A DNA stretch of 40,766 nucleotides from Desulfovibrio sp. DV (GTDB lineage Bacteria > Desulfobacterota > Desulfovibrionia > Desulfovibrionales > Desulfovibrionaceae): assembly GCF_001936595.1 (NCBI RefSeq), contig NZ_MLBG01000031.1, positions 1 to 40,766 on the forward strand. Direction: 5' to 3'. Shown one piece after another: positions 19,362 to 39,606 of this stretch. The notes beneath the pieces are model-generated. The model did no database searches and had not been told where the DNA came from. It saw only the letters and a list, made by a program, of their open reading frames with translations. Every line of letters begins with the position of its first letter. The stretch's first letter is position 1. Both the position numbers and the translations under genes were made by a program.

Positions 19362-20555
19362 CTATTCGGCAGCCGGGGGCGGAACCATGGACAGGTTGCC
19401 GCCTTCGACTTCGACGCGCACTTCAATGGCGATCTTCCACAACACGGTCAGCACGATGCCGCCCAGGGAGAAGATCATAAGCGAGATCATGATTTCCGGG
19501 ATCGTGGGCGAGTAGACCGTGACCTGCTCAAACGGGTTGGGCGTGAACCCACCGATCAAAAGGCCCAGGCCCTTGTCGATCCAGGAGGCGATGACCAGCA
19601 TGATCAGGCCCGTGACCAGGGCCGGGGTCTTCTGGCGCACCGGCGTCGGGATGAGGAACAGCAGGCAGCCAAGGCCCAGAACCACGGCGGTCCACATGAA
19701 CGGCACCATCATGGTGTGGCCGTCGATCCCGTTAAAGAGATAGATCAGCGGGGCCATGTGGCCGGGCATGTTGCTGTAAAACGAGGTGAACACTTCAAGC
19801 AGGAAGAAGAAGATGTTCACGCACATGGCGTAGGTGATGATCACGGCCAGGCGGTTGATGGCCTTCTGGCCCGGATCAAACCCGGTCAGGCGGCGCAAAA
19901 ACAGCACCAGCAACAGCAGGATGGCCGGACCGGAGCAGAACGCGGAAGCCAGGAACCGGGCAGCCATGATGGCCGTCAGGAAGTAGTGGCGTCCGGGCAG
20001 GCCGGCGTACAGGAAGGCCGTGACGGTATGGATCGAGAAGGCCCAGATGACCGACACGATGGCCAGGATCTTGACCCACTTCGGTGGGGTCATGTCGTTT
20101 TTGAAGTACTGCAGACTTGTCCAGCCGACAATGATGTTGAGGAACAGGTAGCCGTTTAGGACCACCATATCCCAGAACAGCACCGAGTGCGGCGTGGGGT
20201 TTAACAGCACGTTGAGCATGCGCTGCGGCTGACCAATGTCGACGACGATGAAACCCAGGCACATTACGACGGCGGCGATGGCCAGGAACTCTCCCAGAAT
20301 GATCATCTTGGAGAATTCTTTGTAGTGGTGGAAGTAATACGGCAGGACCAGCATGACGGCCGAGGCGGCCACGCCGACCAGATAGGTGAACTGGGCGATG
20401 TAAAAGCCCCAGGACACGTCGCGGTTAAGCCCCGTGATCTTCATGCCGAAGGTCAACTGGTAGAGCCAGAACCCCAGCCCTAACAGCATGACCATGCCCA
20501 GGGCAGTCAGCGTGCCCCAATAACGGGGACTTCCTTTGAGTGCTTTTTCCAGCAT
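19362..20555 (-). CDS. dsrP: DsrP, NrfD/PsrC-family membrane subunit of DsrMKJOP
   Basis: This 397-residue integral membrane protein has about ten helices and no soluble domain, as expected of the NrfD family. In the DsrMKJOP complex DsrP is thought to exchange electrons with the menaquinone pool and pass them to DsrO and DsrJ at the periplasmic side. Features include the N-terminal GMKITGLNRDVSWGFYIAQF, shared with quinone-reactive NrfD proteins, and the VVDIGQPQRM and FWDMVVLNGYL segments. The start lies 8 bp after the dsrO stop, and its GAGG ribosome site lies inside the end of dsrO. It is the last gene of the operon and is followed by a clear terminator. Confidence 0.95.
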   Translation of the reverse strand: MLEKALKGSPRYWGTLTALGMVMLLGLGFWLYQLTFGMKITGLNRDVSWGFYIAQFTYLVGVAASAVMLVLPYYFHHYKEFSKMIILGEFLAIAAVVMCLGFIVVDIGQPQRMLNVLLNPTPHSVLFWDMVVLNGYLFLNIIVGWTSLQYFKNDMTPPKWVKILAIVSVIWAFSIHTVTAFLYAGLPGRHYFLTAIMAARFLASAFCSGPAILLLLVLFLRRLTGFDPGQKAINRLAVIITYAMCVNIFFFLLEVFTSFYSNMPGHMAPLIYLFNGIDGHTMMVPFMWTAVVLGLGCLLFLIPTPVRQKTPALVTGLIMLVIASWIDKGLGLLIGGFTPNPFEQVTVYSPTIPEIMISLMIFSLGGIVLTVLWKIAIEVRVEVEGGNLSMVPPPAAE

Positions 20556-20563
20556 GGCTTACC

Positions 20564-21340
20564 TCACAGGATGTAATACACGCTCGGCGAGGTGCCGGCG
20601 TCCGGTTTGCGGCGGATGGCGAAGTGCTCGCGCAACACCTTGCGGATGTCGGACTGCTCGTCGGACAGGTCACCGAACACCAACGCGCCCCCGGCCGCTT
20701 CCACGCATTTGGGCATCTTGCCAATGGCCAGACGCTCGGCGCAGAAGTTGCATTTTTCCACAACGCCGCGCATCCGGGTGGGGAAAAGCGGGTTGAAGTC
20801 TTTGATAAACGGGCGCGGGTCCTGGAAGTTGAAGCTGCGGGCGCCGAACGGGCAGCCGGCCATGCAGTAGCGGCAGCCGATGCAGCGGTGGAAGTCCATC
20901 ATGACGATGCCGTCAGGGCGCTGGAAGGTCGCCTGGGTGGGGCAGACCTTGACGCACATGGGGGATTCGCACTGGTTGCAAAGGAGCGGGAACTGGCGGT
21001 GCTCCACCTCTTCGGACAGGTAGTGGCCGTGCTCGGTGGGGAAGGACTCCTCATAAGAGGCTCCCCAGAGCCATTTGATTTCCTTGGGCCCGGCGATGTC
21101 GGGCACATTGTGTTCGGTGTGGCAGGCCTTGCGGCACGTGGCAATGAGTTCGGGAGTGAACTTGGCGGAATAAACAGCCATGCCCCAATGCTTGGCTTTG
21201 AGGCCCTCCTCGAAATTGGCCACGGTCGGCACTCCGGCAGCGTGGGCCGGAGCGTCGCCCAGGAAACCGAGGCGACCGGCGCCGATTCCCATGGCCGAGA
21301 CGGCTGCCAGTTTCAGGAACTCTCGTCTGCTATTTTTCAT
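20564..21340 (-). CDS. dsrO: DsrO, exported iron-sulfur subunit of DsrMKJOP
   Basis: The 258-residue protein starts with a Tat signal (SRREFLKLAAVSAMGIGAG, twin arginines at residues 5-6), so it is exported folded with its clusters. Four groups of cysteines follow for several [4Fe-4S] clusters: CRKACH, CNQCESPMCVKVCP, CIGCRYCMAGCPFG and CNFCAERL. This is the layout of NrfC/PsrB-type electron transfer subunits. It is predicted to sit in the periplasm between DsrP and DsrJ. AAGGGGA precedes the start, and it lies 41 bp after dsrJ. Confidence 0.95.
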   Translation of the reverse strand: MKNSRREFLKLAAVSAMGIGAGRLGFLGDAPAHAAGVPTVANFEEGLKAKHWGMAVYSAKFTPELIATCRKACHTEHNVPDIAGPKEIKWLWGASYEESFPTEHGHYLSEEVEHRQFPLLCNQCESPMCVKVCPTQATFQRPDGIVMMDFHRCIGCRYCMAGCPFGARSFNFQDPRPFIKDFNPLFPTRMRGVVEKCNFCAERLAIGKMPKCVEAAGGALVFGDLSDEQSDIRKVLREHFAIRRKPDAGTSPSVYYIL

Positions 21341-21381
21341 GGTATGGTCCCCTTAAATGGAGGTGTCACCGGCGCGCCGGC

Positions 21382-21798
21382 CTAGTGTCCGCCCGCGGCC
21401 ACCGTAGCGGTGGGGGGAATGGGCGTCTTCTGGTCCGGCGTCAGGTTGTGGCAATCCCAGCAATAGGGGGCCACGCCTACCGTTTCGTGGCAGCGGTCGC
21501 AGAACTTGGTCTTGTCGGTATGGCAGGACATGCAGGTGTTGGTCAGGCTTTTGACGTACTTCTGGCCCTTGGCATTGACGAAGATACGGCTGCCGTCACG
21601 CACGGCCTCATTGCGCCATTCGTTTAAAAGCTGCATGTGTTTGTCGCGCATTTCCCTGGTGTCAAGGACGCACTCTTTCTGATCCTTGGGCAGTTCCGGC
21701 TTGACCTCGAACGGGTGTCCCATGTTGTACACCACCGGCACGAGGGCGAGGGCCAGGAAGAACAGAATGCCTGGTATGATATATTTGGCATTGTACAT
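21382..21798 (-). CDS. dsrJ: DsrJ, triheme c-type cytochrome of DsrMKJOP
   Basis: The 138-residue protein is anchored by an uncleaved N-terminal helix (about 6-25) and carries three heme-binding motifs: CMSCH (89-93), CDRCH (100-104) and CWDCH (113-117). A further cysteine, C43 in KECVLDT, matches the position discussed in the literature as the unusual heme ligand of DsrJ. It faces the periplasm and exchanges electrons with DsrO. It starts 3 bp after the dsrK stop, and its GGAGG ribosome site lies within the Glu-rich end of dsrK, which suggests coupled translation. Confidence 0.95.
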   Translation of the reverse strand: MYNAKYIIPGILFFLALALVPVVYNMGHPFEVKPELPKDQKECVLDTREMRDKHMQLLNEWRNEAVRDGSRIFVNAKGQKYVKSLTNTCMSCHTDKTKFCDRCHETVGVAPYCWDCHNLTPDQKTPIPPTATVAAGGH

Positions 21799-21801
21799 AG
21801 G

Positions 21802-23415
21802 TTATTCCTCCTCGTCCTCCATCCCCGGCAGGGGGTTTTGCCTGAGATCGGTGGTACGCTTTTTCTCGCCATCGAGAATGATGGCATTTCCCACCAACTC
21901 ATGCACGCCGGAGACGCCGACACCCGGGGCCCAGTAGTCGCAAAGGGGCGGCAGGGTGGCACGGTCGATGGCGCAGATGCAGGCCAGGTTGTTGACGCCG
22001 TGACGATCACGCACATACTTGACCGCGTTGCCCCGGGGCAGGCCGCCGCGCAGGCGCGTTTCAGTGAACTCTTCGTTGTTAAGGCCCGCGCCGCCGCCGC
22101 AGCAGAAGGTCTGCTCGCGGATGGTGTTCTCGGGCATTTCGTAGAACTGCCGGCAGACATTCTTCATGATGTAGCGGGGTTCGTCCAACAGACCCATGCC
22201 GCGGGCAGGGTTGCAGGAATCGTGGAAGGTCGAGATGAAGTTGTCGTTGCGCGACGGATCGAGATTGAGCTTTTTGTTCTTGATCAGGTCGGCCGTGAAC
22301 TCCGCGATGTGGAGCATCTTGGTGCCGGCGGCCGCGTCGAACTTGGTGCCGGTAATGGGCGACACCGGGGTTTCCAGGAAGTCGGCCGGGCCGTTCATGG
22401 TGGACATGTACTGGTTAATCACGCGCCACATGTGGCCGCACTCGCCGCCAAGGATCCACTTGACGCCCAGGCGTTTGGCTTCATTGTACATCTTGCCGTT
22501 GATCTTCTTCATCATCTTGTCCGACGTGAAGAGACCGAAGTTGCCGCCTTCCGAAGCGTAGGTGCTCCAGGTGACGTCCAGGCCCAGATGTTCAAACAGG
22601 ATCAGGTAGCCCATGTAGGTGTAGATGCCCGGATCAGCGAAGATGTCGCCCGAGGGGGTGATGAAAAGGATTTCGCAACCCTTTTTATTCACATTGGGGC
22701 GGATGCGCTTGCCGGTGATGTCCTCTATGTCGTCACAGAGGAAGTCCATCATGTCCTTGTAGGCGTGGGGCTGGATGCCGAGGTGGTTGCCGGTGCGGTT
22801 GCAGTTGGCGGCCGGCTCGAGAATCCAGTTGATGTTGCAGCCCACTTCGTGGAGCAGCTCGCGGGCCATCATGGTGATTTCGGCGGTGTCGATGCCGTAG
22901 GGGCAGAAAAGCGAACACCGGCGGCATTCCGTGCACTGGTAGAAGTACAGGAACCATTCCTTGATGACGTCTTCTTCGAGCTTGCGGGCGCCGGCCAGCT
23001 TGCCGAGCACCTTGGCGGCCGCCGAGAACTCGCCGCGGTAGATGGAGCGCAGCAGTTCCGCGCGCAACACCGGCATGTTTTTCGGGTCGCCGCCGCCGAT
23101 GAAGAAGTGGCACTTGTCCGCGCAGGCGCCGCAGCGCACGCAGATGTCCATGAAGATCTTAAACGATCTGTACTTCTTTAAAAGCGAGCGGAACTTTTCC
23201 ATGACGATGCGCTGCCAGTCGGGCGGCAGCTGCCAGTCGTCGTCGGTGGGGCTCCAGACGCGGGGGTTGGGCATCCCGAGATACTTGAGGATATCGGGCT
23301 TGCCGGGGTAGCTGAAATTGCCGGTTTTAAACGGCGTCTTGGTGTCCATCCACGACTTGACCGGCGTGGTGTAATTAATCTTAATGAGTTCTTCCGGTGG
23401 CGGATACTTGGCCAT
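21802..23415 (-). CDS. dsrK: DsrK, HdrD-like catalytic subunit of DsrMKJOP
   Basis: The 537-residue cytoplasmic protein is related to heterodisulfide reductase HdrD. Two ferredoxin-type cluster motifs occur near residues 90-165 (CVRCGACADKC, CTECRRCSLFC). C-terminal CCG-type motifs (GGECGH and FHDSCNPARG...FCCGGGAG) bind the special noncubane cluster. In current models DsrK reduces the DsrC trisulfide or disulfide made by DsrAB, using electrons from DsrM. AGGAG precedes the ATG. The C terminus is a run of acidic residues that also encodes the dsrJ ribosome site. It lies between dsrM and dsrJ, as in other sulfate reducers. Confidence 0.95.
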   Translation of the reverse strand: MAKYPPPEELIKINYTTPVKSWMDTKTPFKTGNFSYPGKPDILKYLGMPNPRVWSPTDDDWQLPPDWQRIVMEKFRSLLKKYRSFKIFMDICVRCGACADKCHFFIGGGDPKNMPVLRAELLRSIYRGEFSAAAKVLGKLAGARKLEEDVIKEWFLYFYQCTECRRCSLFCPYGIDTAEITMMARELLHEVGCNINWILEPAANCNRTGNHLGIQPHAYKDMMDFLCDDIEDITGKRIRPNVNKKGCEILFITPSGDIFADPGIYTYMGYLILFEHLGLDVTWSTYASEGGNFGLFTSDKMMKKINGKMYNEAKRLGVKWILGGECGHMWRVINQYMSTMNGPADFLETPVSPITGTKFDAAAGTKMLHIAEFTADLIKNKKLNLDPSRNDNFISTFHDSCNPARGMGLLDEPRYIMKNVCRQFYEMPENTIREQTFCCGGGAGLNNEEFTETRLRGGLPRGNAVKYVRDRHGVNNLACICAIDRATLPPLCDYWAPGVGVSGVHELVGNAIILDGEKKRTTDLRQNPLPGMEDEEE

Positions 23416-23458: not shown

Positions 23459-24460
23459 TTAGGCCTCTTTATCCACGGGGAGTCCGGCTTCAATCATCTT
23501 CTCGCGGAATTCGTCCTCGTAGGCTTCATAGGAATGGGCCTTCACGGTGGGGTCGTTCCAGGGGTTCACCCACATGGCCCGACGGCTCATATTGGGGCAG
23601 ACCCGGGTGGGCGAGAGGAAGATGCCGCCCATGTGCATGAGCTTGGAGAAGGGAAAGTAAATGAAAAGCGCGCACACCAGGGTCAGGTGGGCGTACACCG
23701 AGGCGTCGATGGGGGCGGTGGGCAGGTGCGGACGCAGCGTCACCAGACCCATGGCCAGTTCCTTGACGGCGATGACGTCGACCTTGACCACGTAGCGCAT
23801 CCACACGCCGGTCAGCACGATGCCAAGCAGCAGGAACAACGGAAAATAGTCCTGCATGAGCGTGATGTAGCGGACCTTGCCGTCAAAGACGCGGCGGGCC
23901 AGCAGAAAGAGCAGGCCGACCAGGATGAGCGCGTCGGACTGGTACATCACCGGCAGGCCGATCTGGAGAATCGAATCCAGAAATTCGGCGATGCCGACCG
24001 GGCCGGGCACCGGCGCCATGAAAAAGCGCAAGTGGCGCACGAAGATGAGCAGGAAGCAGTAGTGGAAGATCAAGGCGAACAGCCACAGGGATTTCTCCGA
24101 GCTGTAGCCGACCTTGGGTCCGTCCTGCTGGAGCTTCACCGACGTGTTGCGGAAAAGCGACCGGAAGCAGAGCACTTCCAGGACCATCCGCATGAACACG
24201 CCCTTCTTGTCGTCAGGGTTGTCCCAGGGGCTGTTTTTGATCCAGGGCAGCGATTTCTGCTGACCGCCGGTGGTGGGAATGCAAAACGGAACCGGGCTTT
24301 TGGCCCAATCCACGATGCGCATGGTAAAACCCACCAGAAAAATGATGATTGCGATGTACGGGAGTGCTATCCCGAACAGCGCGCTCATCCCCATCCCCAC
24401 GCCCAACCACGGGATGACGATAAGCGCCAGTACCGCGAGAAAGGAGTAAAACGCTGCCAT
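23459..24460 (-). CDS. dsrM: DsrM, NarI-like cytochrome b subunit of DsrMKJOP
   Basis: The 333-residue membrane protein has about six hydrophobic segments, with histidines in helices that suit b-heme ligation (HYCFLLIFVRHLRFF and the later VCALFIYFPFSKLMHMGG). It is thought to oxidise menaquinol and feed DsrK on the cytoplasmic side. The C-terminal tail is polar and cytoplasmic. A GAGGTGAGGG stretch precedes the ATG. It follows the RsbRD_N-like gene by 36 bp, so the operon reads (RsbRD_N)-dsrM-K-J-O-P. Confidence 0.93.
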   Translation of the reverse strand: MAAFYSFLAVLALIVIPWLGVGMGMSALFGIALPYIAIIIFLVGFTMRIVDWAKSPVPFCIPTTGGQQKSLPWIKNSPWDNPDDKKGVFMRMVLEVLCFRSLFRNTSVKLQQDGPKVGYSSEKSLWLFALIFHYCFLLIFVRHLRFFMAPVPGPVGIAEFLDSILQIGLPVMYQSDALILVGLLFLLARRVFDGKVRYITLMQDYFPLFLLLGIVLTGVWMRYVVKVDVIAVKELAMGLVTLRPHLPTAPIDASVYAHLTLVCALFIYFPFSKLMHMGGIFLSPTRVCPNMSRRAMWVNPWNDPTVKAHSYEAYEDEFREKMIEAGLPVDKEA

Positions 24461-24496: not shown

Positions 24497-25039
24497 CTAC
24501 TGGTCCTCCCCTCCCTCGGCGGAGAGGTCGCAGACGAGATTGGCCCGTTTAAGGAGCCGGTCGTACTGTTTCTTGATCTGATCGATCCGAAGGGCGTAGA
24601 TTTTTTCCCGGCACTGGCAGTAGATGTCGAGCGAGAACAGGGCCAGTACATCGATAGCCGATTCCAGGGCGAGGAGCTGGACGAACAGATTGTGCTCGAC
24701 GATCTTGGGCCACAGGGCTTCCCGGACCGCCTTTTTGAGCAGAAAAATGAACGCCGTGGCCTGGGCCGGGGTGAAATCCTGGACAGCGCGCACCCGCACG
24801 ATCTCGTCGAGAAACGGTGTGAACGTGGCCGCGTCCGGTGCCTCGCCGCAGCTGGCAAGGCCCATGACAATACCGCGCATTCCGGCCTCGAACCGGTGGC
24901 GCACGGGATTGGCAAAGGGATCGTCGCGTTTTTTCCACAGCACGGCCGTATTCTCGGCATAGGTGCCGAGAATCAGGTCGAACCAGGCGTCAAGGACAAC
25001 CTGCTGGTCCAGGACGAGGAAATCCACCAGTTTGAGCAT
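24497..25039 (-). CDS. RsbRD_N-like helical protein leading the dsrMKJOP operon
   Basis: This 180-residue cytoplasmic protein looks like a free-standing RsbRD N-terminal domain, the helical sensory part of RsbR-type stressosome proteins and similar sensors. Cues are the opening in which a residue-rich helix is followed by a W-F-D-L-I-L-G-T-Y segment, the DDPFANPVRHRFEAGM stretch, and a later FLDEIVRVRAVQDFTPAQA stretch. No STAS, kinase or DNA-binding domain follows. The ATG at 25039 has AAGG upstream. It precedes dsrM by 36 bp and is almost certainly co-transcribed with it. A role as a redox or metabolite sensor, or as an assembly factor for the complex, is inference from position only. Confidence 0.7.
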   Translation of the reverse strand: MLKLVDFLVLDQQVVLDAWFDLILGTYAENTAVLWKKRDDPFANPVRHRFEAGMRGIVMGLASCGEAPDAATFTPFLDEIVRVRAVQDFTPAQATAFIFLLKKAVREALWPKIVEHNLFVQLLALESAIDVLALFSLDIYCQCREKIYALRIDQIKKQYDRLLKRANLVCDLSAEGGEDQ

Positions 25040-25109
25040 GGAAATGTACCTTTCTTCACAAATGCTTAACAGGCTGGTTCCTTACCAGAAAAGCGCAAAT
25101 TGTAAAGGA

Positions 25110-25151
25110 CGGAAATCCTCAGGCCAGAGCGGAAATCACCAGGGATTTCCG
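25110..25151. promoter_or_regulatory. Candidate operator: three copies of CGGAAATC upstream of dsrMKJOP
   Basis: CGGAAATC occurs at 25110-25117 and again at 25130-25137, exactly 20 bp apart. Its exact reverse complement GATTTCCG lies at 25144-25151, so the last two form a perfect 8-bp inverted repeat around six bases. The element lies 71-112 bp upstream of the operon's first ATG and 55 bp upstream of the divergent gene's ATG. This is the typical layout of a regulator site controlling both directions. I found no convincing promoter boxes for either gene. Confidence 0.5.
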
Positions 25152-25206
25152 GGGACTTGCCGCCCTGGGGCGCATTTTGCTAGTCTCGGAAAAAAAGAGA
25201 GCCGCC

Positions 25207-25719
25207 ATGCAGCCCACACCCGCACAATTTGACATCCTGCGCGCCGCCGCCGCATTTTCCGCAGTGGAGCGCTACAGCGGGACCATGCCCAAACGGCAGG
25301 CCCTGCATTATGACAAGACACAATTGACGGGCCTCGAAGATGCCGGATTTCTGGAGCGGGTCAAGCTCTCATTTCCCTGCGGCAAGGATGTCGAAGGCTG
25401 GCGGCTGACGGGGTTTGGGCGGCTGATCCTGGCCGACAAGGCGGCCGACGACGCCCTGGAGCCGGAGCATCTGCGTATCCTTTCAGATGTCTACCACTAC
25501 TCCCGGCTGTCCCAGAACCGGGGGATGATGCCCAAGGAACTGGCCCGGACGTTTGACGCCGACGACGTGCGCGACCTGTTTATGCACGGCTATCTGCTGC
25601 GCATCCATCTCAAGGGAGCGGTCAAGGCCAAAGGCTGGGTGGTGTCCAACAAGGGCCTTGCCGCCCTGCGCCGGGCGACCGGTCCGGTCTTTGTCGGGGC
25701 CGGTCCCCAGAAAAACTAG
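25207..25719 (+). CDS. Protein of two duplicated winged-helix-like modules, candidate dsr regulator
   Basis: I do not recognise a family, but the 170-residue protein shows a clear internal duplication. Residues 8-75 and 89-155 align with an offset of 81: I10-L11 with I91-L92, M27-P28-K29 with M108-P109-K110, D36 with D117, and G47-F48-L49-x-R51 with G128-Y129-L130-x-R132. The match continues at a shift of 79 with G64-W65 against G143-W144 and G71 against G150. Each module reads like a small winged helix, ending in a G-W-x-[LV]-[TS] wing strand. I start it at the ATG at 25207, since the upstream TTG at 25177 lacks a ribosome site. It is divergent from the dsrMKJOP operon across a shared palindrome, so DNA binding there is a reasonable hypothesis. 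It overlaps the convergent amphi-Trp gene by 4 bp. Confidence 0.75.
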   Translation: MQPTPAQFDILRAAAAFSAVERYSGTMPKRQALHYDKTQLTGLEDAGFLERVKLSFPCGKDVEGWRLTGFGRLILADKAADDALEPEHLRILSDVYHYSRLSQNRGMMPKELARTFDADDVRDLFMHGYLLRIHLKGAVKAKGWVVSNKGLAALRRATGPVFVGAGPQKN

Positions 25720-25973
25720 AACTCGCCGCGAAGCCCGGGTTCGCCCGGCTGGTGCGGACTCCACGACAGCCGCACGTCCAGGCCCTCGCGGTCGGGCCGC
25801 TTGGTGGCTTTTATTTCCACATCCAGCATCACGGCCGGCGTCAGCCGCACCGACACCCGTCCGGCCGCAACGCCAAGGCTGCCGGCCCGCAGTTCCCGGG
25901 CCATGGCTTCCAACCGGTCCGCCGCCTCCCACACGCCCATCACCCCGCCCAGGCGGGCCTTCTGGATCCCCAT
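25716..25973 (-). CDS. Small amphi-Trp domain protein
   Basis: The 85-residue protein fits the amphi-Trp domain pattern. It has a helix with EAADRLEAMARELRAGSL, then strands with V-x-V-x-L-x-P and an acidic-hydrophobic strand (LDVEIKATK), ending at LDVRLSW. The function of the domain is not known. It is found as a small stand-alone protein in many bacteria and archaea. GGGGAGG precedes the ATG. Its end overlaps the convergent gene by 4 bp. It lies 98 bp downstream of pncC on the same strand. Confidence 0.75.
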   Translation of the reverse strand: MGIQKARLGGVMGVWEAADRLEAMARELRAGSLGVAAGRVSVRLTPAVMLDVEIKATKRPDREGLDVRLSWSPHQPGEPGLRGEF

Positions 25974-37112: not shown

Positions 37113-38276
37113 TTAAGCCTCGATGTGCTTGGTGAACTTGAACTGGGTGCTCTGGCGCCACGTGTAGTAGGCCGGATCACGGAAGTCATCGATGCAGTGG
37201 TGGGTGAACTCCAGGTCGCACAGCTCGAAGAACTTCTCCCAGCCAATGCGCTCGGCCCACTCGCCCAGGCGCTCGTACTTGCGAGCTTCCTTGGCGTACA
37301 CTTCGACGATCTGCTTGACCATCTTGGTCAGCGTCGGCCAGCGGGGCGGCTCGTTGGGGATAAAGGCCACAACGACCTTGGAGAACTTGGGCATGGAGAT
37401 GCGGTTGGACACCTTGCCGCCGACCATGAGCACGATGCCGTCACCCTCGCCGGAAGCGAGCGGCATGGCCGGGCACATGGTGTAGCAGTTGCCGCAGTAC
37501 ATGCAGCGCGAGGCGTTAACGGCAACGGAGTTGACCTTCTTGCCGTCGATCTCGACCTTGGCCGGCTTGATGGCGCCGGTGGGGCAGGCGGAGACAGCCA
37601 GGGGCACTTCGCAGATGTTGTCCAGGCGGTCGTGCTCGACGATGGGGGGCTTGCGGTGGATGCCGACGATACCGATGTCGGAGCAGTGCACCGCGCCGCA
37701 CATGTTGAGGCAGCAGGCCAGCGAGATGCGGACCATGGCCGGCAGGGTCATGGACTGGAAGTACTCGAACATGTCGTCCATGACAGCCTTGACCGGGCCG
37801 GAGGCGTCGGTGGCCGGGGTGTGGCAGTGGGCGTAACCCTGGGTGTGGACGATGTTGGAGACGCAGGCGCCGGTGCCGCCGACCGGGAACTTGAAGCTGC
37901 CGCCAGCGAACTTGCGGGAAGCCAGATCGGCCAGCAGGCCGTCAAGAGCGGCTTCGGTCTCGACCATGAACTCCACGTTGTTACGCGTGGTGAAGCGCAG
38001 GTGGCCGCCGCAATGCTTCTCGGCGATCTCGCAGATCTCGCGGATGTGCGTGACGCTCATGAGGCGGGCAGCGCCGACGCGCACGGTGTAGACCACGTCG
38101 CCGGACAGGCCGACATGCTTGAGCACGCCGGGTTTGACGATCTCGTGGTAGTCCCACGCGCCTTTGTTTTTCTTGATGACCGGCGGATAGAACTCCTCGA
38201 AATGACGAGGACCGATATCCGTGATCCGGTTTTCCATGGGCTTGTCGGGATTGTATCCGGAAGAGATGAATGCCAT
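37113..38276 (-). CDS. dsrB: DsrB, beta subunit of dissimilatory sulfite reductase
   Basis: The 387-residue protein has the siroheme-[4Fe-4S] half of the sulfite reductase fold. A cysteine-rich cluster site is visible in [14 protein letters not shown] (about residues 185-198), and an inserted ferredoxin domain ([21 protein letters not shown]) follows. It pairs with DsrA in a heterotetramer that reduces sulfite. The product is transferred to DsrC, which is not encoded in this window. It starts 16 bp after the dsrA stop. The length and cluster motifs fit the family. Confidence 0.97.
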
Positions 38277-38292
38277 TTCTTATGTCCCCCGC

Positions 38293-39606
38293 TTATCTCA
38301 TGTGTCTCTGGCGATAGGCCTTTTCGTCATGGGCAAAGCCGCCGGGCACTTCCTCTTCCTTGAAGAAGATGTACGGGTTGGAGCGCGGCTCTTTGACATG
38401 CTGCGGCATAGCCTTGATGTTGGTGACCTCGAGCAGCTTCTGGAAGGACAGACGCTTCATGGTCTCGCCCACGCGCTCGCGGTTCTTGCCTTCTTCCATC
38501 CACCAGTCCCAAATGTTCTCGATGACTTCTTTGATCTCGTCGTAGGGCTTTTCGACCACGACGAAGGGAACGAGCAGCGAGGACATCTGGGCGCCGTCAA
38601 GGATGGGGGCCTTGGCGCCGAGCAGGATCGAGGTGCCGGTTTCTTTGCCGATCTTGACCGCTGCGGGCATGGTGTTGATGCAGTGCATGCAACGGGTGCA
38701 GTTGGCATTGTCAATGGACAGCTTGGCGCCGTCGTAGCTCATGCAGCCGGTGGGGCAGCGATCCACGACTTCCTTGACGATGTCGAACTTGCCCCAGTCG
38801 CGGCCGGAGTGGGAGCCGCCGCCCGGCTTGAACTCGCCGGCGACATAGGCCTTCACGCGATCCTGGTCGATGCGGATGTCGTCCTTCCAGGTGCCGATGA
38901 CCGAGAAGTCGGAACGGGCGATGGAAGCGACGCAGCCGTTGGGGCAGCCGTCGAACTTGAACTTGAACTTGTAGGGGAAGGCCGGACGGTGCAGCTCGTC
39001 CTGGTAGTCATTGGTCAGGGTGTGGCACAGGTCCTGGGTGTCGTAGCAGGCGAATTCGCAGCGCGACTGGCCGAGGCAGTCAGCCGGGGTGCGCAGGTTG
39101 CCGCCCGAGCCGCCGAGGTCGGTGTTCATCTTGTGGGTGACGTCGAAGAAAATTTCTTCCAGCTGCGGGGTGGTGGTGCCGAGCAGCACGATGTCACCGG
39201 TGGAGCCGTGCATGTTGGTCAGGCCGGAACCGCGCAGGTCCCAGATGTCCATGATGCCGCGCAGGTAATCAGCGGTGTAGTACTTGCCGGAGGGCTGGGC
39301 CAGACGCACGGTGTGGAAGTGGGCAACGCCCGGGAACATCTCGGGCTGGTCGCAGTAACGGCCGATGACGCCGCCGCCGTAACCGAAAACGCCCACGATG
39401 CCGCCGTGCTTCCAGTGGGTCTCTTTGTCCTTGAAGGAGAGTTCCAGCACGCCGAGCAGATCGTCAGGGCAGTCAACGGGAGTCTGGTAATCCAGGCCGT
39501 CGGGGTTAGCGGCCCGATGGGCTGCTTCCTGTTTGATGTCGGACACGAAGCTGGGCCAGGGCCCAGTTTCGAGCTGGTCCAACAAGGGAGTTTGGTGTTT
39601 CGCCAT
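38293..39606 (-). CDS. dsrA: DsrA, alpha subunit of dissimilatory sulfite reductase
   Basis: The 437-residue protein carries the siroheme-cluster cysteines in CEFACYDTQDLCH and DGCPNGCVASIARSDFSVIG, and a ferredoxin domain (CPTGCMSYDG, CTRCMHCINTMP). It forms the alpha2beta2 enzyme with DsrB in the cytoplasm and is the terminal reductase of sulfate respiration. The ATG at 39606 follows GGAGGA. It is the first gene of the operon dsrA-B-D-dsrN, read to the left. A YkgJ-like gene is divergent from it. Confidence 0.98.
   Translation of the reverse strand: MAKHQTPLLDQLETGPWPSFVSDIKQEAAHRAANPDGLDYQTPVDCPDDLLGVLELSFKDKETHWKHGGIVGVFGYGGGVIGRYCDQPEMFPGVAHFHTVRLAQPSGKYYTADYLRGIMDIWDLRGSGLTNMHGSTGDIVLLGTTTPQLEEIFFDVTHKMNTDLGGSGGNLRTPADCLGQSRCEFACYDTQDLCHTLTNDYQDELHRPAFPYKFKFKFDGCPNGCVASIARSDFSVIGTWKDDIRIDQDRVKAYVAGEFKPGGGSHSGRDWGKFDIVKEVVDRCPTGCMSYDGAKLSIDNANCTRCMHCINTMPAAVKIGKETGTSILLGAKAPILDGAQMSSLLVPFVVVEKPYDEIKEVIENIWDWWMEEGKNRERVGETMKRLSFQKLLEVTNIKAMPQHVKEPRSNPYIFFKEEEVPGGFAHDEKAYRQRHMR

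Follow-up and report, generated by a model that had tools for sequence, protein, structure and literature searches.

A tandem winged-helix protein of an undescribed family, encoded divergently from dsrMKJOP in Solidesulfovibrio: a candidate local regulator

We analysed a stretch of 40,766 nucleotides, hereafter the window, which is contig C31 of genome G000, that of a sulfate-respiring bacterium (Desulfovibrio sp. DV). It carries the genes of DsrMKJOP, a membrane complex thought to supply electrons for sulfite reduction, in an operon headed by an RsbRD_N-domain gene (rsb) and faced by a divergent gene for a winged-helix protein (reg). The features of the locus are the following:

19362-23415, minus strand: dsrK, dsrJ, dsrO and dsrP (NF045796, NF038038, NF045797, NF045798)
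23459-24460, minus strand: dsrM (NF038037)
24497-25039, minus strand: rsb, RsbRD_N-domain gene heading the divergent operon (Pfam, E 7.6e-17)
25044-25061, minus strand: degenerate Rex/HcpR-like word TTGTGAAGAAAGGTACAT, first half perfect, second half 3/6, 9/12 in all
25079-25106, minus strand: presumed rsb-dsrMKJOP promoter (TTTACA, 16 bp, TAAGGA), drawn by eye from conserved columns
25110-25117, plus strand: octamer 1, CGGAAATC, 3 bp upstream of the presumed rsb-dsr -35 (promoter by eye)
25130-25137, plus strand: octamer 2, CGGAAATC, all eight columns invariant in the seven nearest loci
25144-25151, minus strand: octamer 3, in inverse orientation to octamer 2, placed 5 bp upstream of the -35 presumed for reg (by eye), degenerate in relatives
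25157-25186, plus strand: presumed reg promoter (TTGCCG, then TGCTAGTCT), drawn by eye from conserved columns
25207-25719, plus strand: reg, tandem winged-helix gene, 170 aa, with domain 1 at about 1-79, domain 2 at about 84-158 and a disordered tail

All five of DsrM, DsrK, DsrJ, DsrO and DsrP score above the NCBIfam equivalog cut-offs. The intergenic region between rsb and reg is 167 bp long, and in the alignment the ATG start of reg is in line with the starts of its relatives. At its other end, the stop codon of reg is overlapped by that of a small Amphi-Trp-like gene (25716-25973, minus strand; 22.8 bits against a cut-off of 27), a counterpart of which adjoins reg in G122 (L171:3153-3431) and scores above the cut-off (36.4 bits). 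The window also carries dsrA and a dsrB-like neighbour (37152-39582, minus strand), and a second dsrA/dsrB-like pair lies on another contig of the genome (C22:22272-24702), both dsrA copies exceeding the TIGR02064 cut-off.

The initial annotation had taken the reg product for an undescribed protein, and in the profile searches no Pfam or NCBIfam model reached its cut-off with it, the best Pfam score being that of HTH_20 (13.3 bits against a cut-off of 27). For 50 members of the family, the best hits, tallied by E-value and not compared with curated cut-offs, were to PadR (6.4e-4; 4 members), MCR_D (0.0016; 1), SufR (0.0042; 1) and MarR (0.039; 1). The protein is a member of an undescribed family, represented here by 65 proteins, that is, the distinct open reading frames of at least 100 residues found at E <= 1e-8 in the fetched loci, from which some partial or interrupted matches are absent. 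Alignment A1 leaves out a non-homologue (L023), two duplicates (L027 and L028) and a partial sequence (L029), and alignment A2 comprises 50 of the 65 proteins, after removal of 5 with GTG or TTG starts and of 10 near-copies or near relatives. A search with the single sequence matched 23 of 59 relatives, including 12 of the 13 other congeners; the assembly of the remaining congener (G002) is 69% complete, and a dsrM match is likewise absent from it. In another family of the order (f5), 3 of 5 genomes matched. With a profile, matches within the window's taxonomic family rose to 55 of 199 genomes (17 of 44 sampled genera), and a phylum-wide sample yielded 3 of 297, all belonging to that family and one of them being the window's own genome. 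Among the genomes sampled, the protein family was seen solely in Desulfovibrionales, in one or two, rarely three, members per matching genome.

The divergence of reg from the RsbRD_N-dsrMKJOP operon, read at first from the window, recurs throughout one group, in 25 of 25 copies drawn from 24 genomes and four genera. These are all 14 copies from the window's own genus, Solidesulfovibrio (13 genomes), and those of G022 and the remaining loci of genera g10 (a total of 7 genomes), g53 (3) and g43 (1). In 20 genomes of other genera, including G018 (genus g6), no family member lies within 1.3-1.6 kb upstream of rsb, and 16 of these 20 carry one elsewhere. In G018 a MerR-type gene (L179:4911-5921, minus strand) faces rsb-dsrM at the place occupied by reg in other genera.

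Compared with itself, the reg protein gives a best offset of 81 residues with 19 identities in 89 positions, a marginal signal for a single sequence, as 19 identities were reached at some offset in 30 of 1000 letter shuffles. Alignment of the two halves over the 65 family members is far more telling (hhalign, probability 99.4, E 6.6e-22, 76 collinear columns), and indicates that the protein is an internal duplication of one domain, with halves homologous end to end, as had been proposed with the same offset of 81. Two AlphaFold2 models, built from 25 and then 50 sequences (mean pLDDT 85.4 and 90.9), both predict the order helix-helix-helix-strand-strand twice, the second helix being short (4 residues). 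In domain 1 these elements are helix 5-17/18, short helix 29-32, helix 37-45 and strands 49-55 and 61-67, followed by helix 69-78/79, and in domain 2 the same order runs through 86-99, 110-113, 118-126, 130-135, 141-146 and 148-158. Two winged helices in tandem, the architecture first guessed from the sequence, are thus well supported by the models, the mutual placement of the two domains being uncertain (pTM 0.51 and 0.58).

For neither model did Foldseek return a PDB match at E < 0.001; ScpB heads the lists (1.1e-3, 1.4e-3), which also hold TFIIIC TauB, SarS, MarR, MexR and PadR, with MexR (1lnw_A) covering 82 columns at 3.1 A and RIOK2 (9f81_A) 77 columns at 2.9 A, both at E > 0.001. Among predicted viral proteins there were 3 matches at E < 0.001, each with a TM-score below 0.5. 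SarS of Staphylococcus aureus (PDB 1p4x; Foldseek E 0.012 and 0.021) has two winged helices on one chain that act as a built-in dimer, but it is longer than the reg protein (250 against 170 residues), its TM-score is 0.29 by query, and no shared sequence family was found. Each half of the reg protein also resembles the winged-helix domain of MarR and PadR (PF01047, PF03551), to which the family has weak profile matches; the window protein itself has none at E <= 10, and, unlike these regulators, it would fuse two domains and lack a separate dimerisation helix. A literature search on tandem winged helices and pseudo-dimers, covering titles, returned nothing relevant.

As for DNA binding, the chemistry of the protein is mixed. 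Its pI is 9.5 and its second wing is basic, with 5 positive and no negative residues (family means 5.3 and 1.2), and the putative recognition helices are net acidic, with 1 positive and 3 negative residues in the first and 1 and 4 in the second (family means 1.1/3.7 and 1.1/3.0). The first recognition helix starts with T38 and Q/R39 in the window's sub-clade, where the other sub-clade has mostly acidic residues, and in H3a 2 of 9 positions differ between the sub-clades, compared with 22 of 170 overall. This apparent covariation of H3 residues with the octamers is a hint at most.

In the intergenic region, octamers 1 and 2 start 20 bp apart, and octamers 2 and 3 make up a perfect inverted repeat whose arms are 6 bp apart; the threefold repeat and its geometry were found exactly as previously described. 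Over the whole window CGGAAATC occurs 4 times against 2.0 expected, and at least 4 times in 13 of 100 shuffles, so that the count is uninformative and means little; the clustering is what matters. Among 1000 dinucleotide-shuffled versions of the 167-bp region, made for a motif that had been picked after inspection of the same sequence, an 8-bp inverted-repeat arm arose in 68, a threefold 8-mer in 11 and both together in none. The perfect inverted repeat has a single occurrence in the 4.85-Mb genome, where the four further near-matches carry two mismatches each and lie partly within open reading frames; no wider CGGAAATC regulon was seen. CGGAAATC is also missing within 500 bp upstream of sat and of either dsrA copy in this genome.

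The octamers lie close to both presumed promoters, neither of which was found by a sigma-70 consensus scan. Read by eye, octamer 1 gives GATTTCCG-TCC-TTTACA towards rsb, with octamer 2 lying 20 bp farther upstream, and octamer 3 gives GATTTCCG-GGGAC-TTGCCG towards reg. The same orientation of the word just upstream of both -35 elements would fit an activator or an autoregulator. A second inverted repeat, CTGRT-N5-AYCAG over the presumed rsb -10, covaries between sub-clades; it was rejected, being by eye not kept in other genera.

We then compared the region among relatives. Exact copies of CGGAAATC number three in the window, two each in G008 and G006, and one each in G013, G007, G009 and G005, with none in the other seven Solidesulfovibrio loci nor in G022. 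Across all 14 loci of the genus, 51 of 70 columns are invariant in the rsb-proximal half, 12 of 42 in the octamer zone and 17 of 55 in the reg-proximal part. An operator shared by the genus is disfavoured by this distribution, since the octamer zone is poorly invariant and the rsb-proximal half is the best kept. The picture changes in the seven nearest loci, where 21 of the 24 octamer columns are invariant against 12 of the 35 other columns of 25110-25168 (Fisher one-sided test, 4.6e-5; 0.004 when all 73 other columns of 25110-25206 serve as the comparison), the seven octamer-positive loci amounting to about three independent lineages. The test is a fair one because the octamers had been named from one genome before any relative was inspected. 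Random placements of a triple equalled the octamer invariance in 92 of 20,000 cases; when the octamer geometry was slid along the region, the value of 21 was also attained at offsets 25155 and 25156, i.e. on the reg promoter.

Of the 14 genus genomes, 7 contain a single copy each of the exact pair CGGAAWTC-N12-CGGAAATC, always in the rsb-reg intergenic region, and its one-mismatch versions occur elsewhere six times, in six genomes. One exact pair per genome is as expected for a local, not a global, site. Even in the degenerate form CGGRAWTC, the octamer is missing from sub-clade B (the other 7 of the 14 Solidesulfovibrio loci) and from all 11 loci of g10, g43 and g53, and sub-clade B has other invariant columns at the equivalent place upstream of reg (CAACCCC, then AATCCCA). 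Thus the operator is not kept wherever reg faces dsr, the octamers being present in 7 of 14 loci of the genus and in none of the 11 of the other three genera. As to the palindrome, it is perfect in the window only, of 15 loci compared, and already has one mismatch in G008, the protein of which is 99% identical; it was rejected as a conserved operator. Of the palindromic operator first proposed, and expected upstream of dsrM in relatives that retain the gene, what stands is an octamer footprint in the seven nearest loci, and what falls is its extension to the rest. This footprint is real but narrow, at the level of a sub-clade. One assembly, G007, has two dsrM loci, L005 (C129) and L024 (C80), which belong to different sub-clades and are each accompanied by their own reg; with a contamination value of 3, the assembly is possibly a mixed bin.

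Our open-access literature search, covering titles and the openings of abstracts, gave no dedicated regulator of dsrMKJOP. The reading that we favour, tentatively and at slightly less than an even chance, is that the reg protein is a local winged-helix regulator which binds the octamers in one sub-clade, autoregulates, and probably modulates the rsb-dsrMKJOP promoter. On this view two copies of a single winged helix, fused and since diverged, make up a small one-component protein that most likely serves as a local DNA-binding regulator; the presence of winged-helix proteins in the Foldseek lists, the DNA-binding MarR, MexR, PadR and SarS among them, is consistent with such a role. In the Solidesulfovibrio sub-clade that includes the window's genome, we infer that it binds the GATTTCCG-type octamers upstream of both presumed -35 elements, where it would regulate its own gene and probably modulate the RsbRD_N-dsrMKJOP promoter, the sign of this control and any signal being likewise conjectural. 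Control of sulfite respiration by the reg protein, as suggested from the start, would be a plausible role and no more; the case is weaker because both helices expected to read DNA are acidic, most loci retaining reg have lost the octamers, and the family also occurs in other gene contexts.

These contexts also bear on a different explanation, which we consider somewhat unlikely: that the protein is a DNA-binding regulator with its main targets elsewhere in the genome, its place beside dsr being an inherited neighbourhood of one clade and the octamers serving its own promoter or another factor. Apart from dsr, members adjoin argininosuccinate lyase (argH) and FtsH, a FabZ-like gene, glyceraldehyde-3-phosphate dehydrogenase, or a GH57/DUF3536 gene (20 loci inspected; five neighbour genes, chosen by eye, were profile-tested). 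Because relatives adjoin such unrelated genes, the protein family is not dsr-specific, and a family-wide role in dsr control was ruled out. The one to three members per genome, with their several contexts, speak for targets elsewhere. The tree points the same way: 24 of the 25 dsr-adjacent copies fall in one clade (support 91/85), so that the placement beside dsr is essentially one event, and the remaining copy, that of G067 (g43), sits on long branches among the rapidly evolving second copies found in g10. Synteny also extends beyond the pair, pncC and serS being retained nearby in Solidesulfovibrio, in g10 and in two of the three g53 loci (they were not seen in the G067 stretch or on the G077 contig, which ends early), and gene order alone is therefore weak evidence. 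Against targets elsewhere, the exact octamer pair occurs nowhere else in the 14 genus genomes, and the position of reg has been kept although DsrM identity drops to about 58%.

An unlikely alternative to local regulation by the reg protein is that a Rex- or HcpR-type regulator controls rsb-dsrMKJOP at the TTGTGA word, the winged-helix protein being uninvolved in dsr control. Rex of Desulfovibrio vulgaris, a redox regulator of sulfate-reduction genes according to a passage in PMC4215793 and the title of Christensen 2015 as listed in PMC5701242, is a different protein and a candidate for the same promoter; the same passage of PMC4215793, citing Ravcheev 2012, has many sulfate-reduction genes coregulated by Rex. 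The genome encodes a Rex-type protein (Rex N-terminal domain) on another contig, C60, and has 8 sites matching TTGTGA-N6-TCACAA with at most one mismatch, 5 of which adjoin genes matching models of APS reductase beta, DHH/DHHA2, pyruvate:ferredoxin oxidoreductase, NuoE-like and NuoJ-like proteins. Upstream of rsb, Solidesulfovibrio, g53, g43, g10 and g6 share by eye a TTTACA/T-N16-17-TA-rich shape together with the TTGTGA word, which in 24 of 26 loci scores 9-10/12 at a comparable position (12/14, 3/3, 1/1, 7/7 and 1/1, respectively); g6 carries the word with no family member facing rsb. At different places within 260 bp upstream of rsb, 15 of 24 loci of other genera also reach at least 9/12, and the evidence therefore lies in the fixed position of the word and its perfect first half, not in the score. 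The second half-site is poor, the word at the dsr promoter being degenerate, and none of the TTGTGA type was found in the 500 bp examined at both dsrA copies and sat. Moreover, Rex sites are described in a passage of PMC5701242 as identical to HcpR1 sites, so that the two cannot be distinguished, and Rex or HcpR control is compatible with a second regulator. Upstream of rsb in other genera (L089-L095, L097, L099, L108, L110) a different conserved word, CTTGACG...TCTGGAATA, was seen by eye.

It is quite unlikely, in our estimate, that the reg protein is a tandem winged-helix adaptor that binds protein instead of DNA. ScpB is such a protein-binding tandem winged helix, working in the condensin complex, and its chains (PDB 3w6j, 2z99), which are of similar length, are the best Foldseek matches; the sole near-significant match in the PDB sequence search, to domain 2 and the linker, is the C-terminal domain of CheF (PDB 7od9; E 0.07 and 0.006), and the H3 helices are acidic in both domains. 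The TM-scores to ScpB are, however, about 0.3, there is no condensin context at reg, and CheF is an archaeal chemotaxis adaptor whose match covers one domain only. The basic second wing, the high pI, the divergent placement and the footprint at its own promoter likewise argue against the adaptor.

One might go further and speculate that the protein is a one-component regulator of Desulfovibrionales with a built-in dimer, in which C58, at the tip of the first wing and present in 59 of 65 homologues, senses sulfide, persulfide or redox state at the dsr promoter and so couples DNA binding there to the product of sulfite respiration, an idea to which we give very little credence.

If the reg protein does control dsrMKJOP, the locus would show how the final respiratory step is adjusted in such bacteria. 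Whether it does or not, an unannotated tandem winged-helix family with a conserved wing cysteine has been defined in 17 of 44 sampled genera, and a short DNA fragment can be named as a candidate for binding tests. Five g10 genomes (L026, L155, L164, L165 and L166) have a second, fast-evolving member on a long branch, without the wing cysteine.
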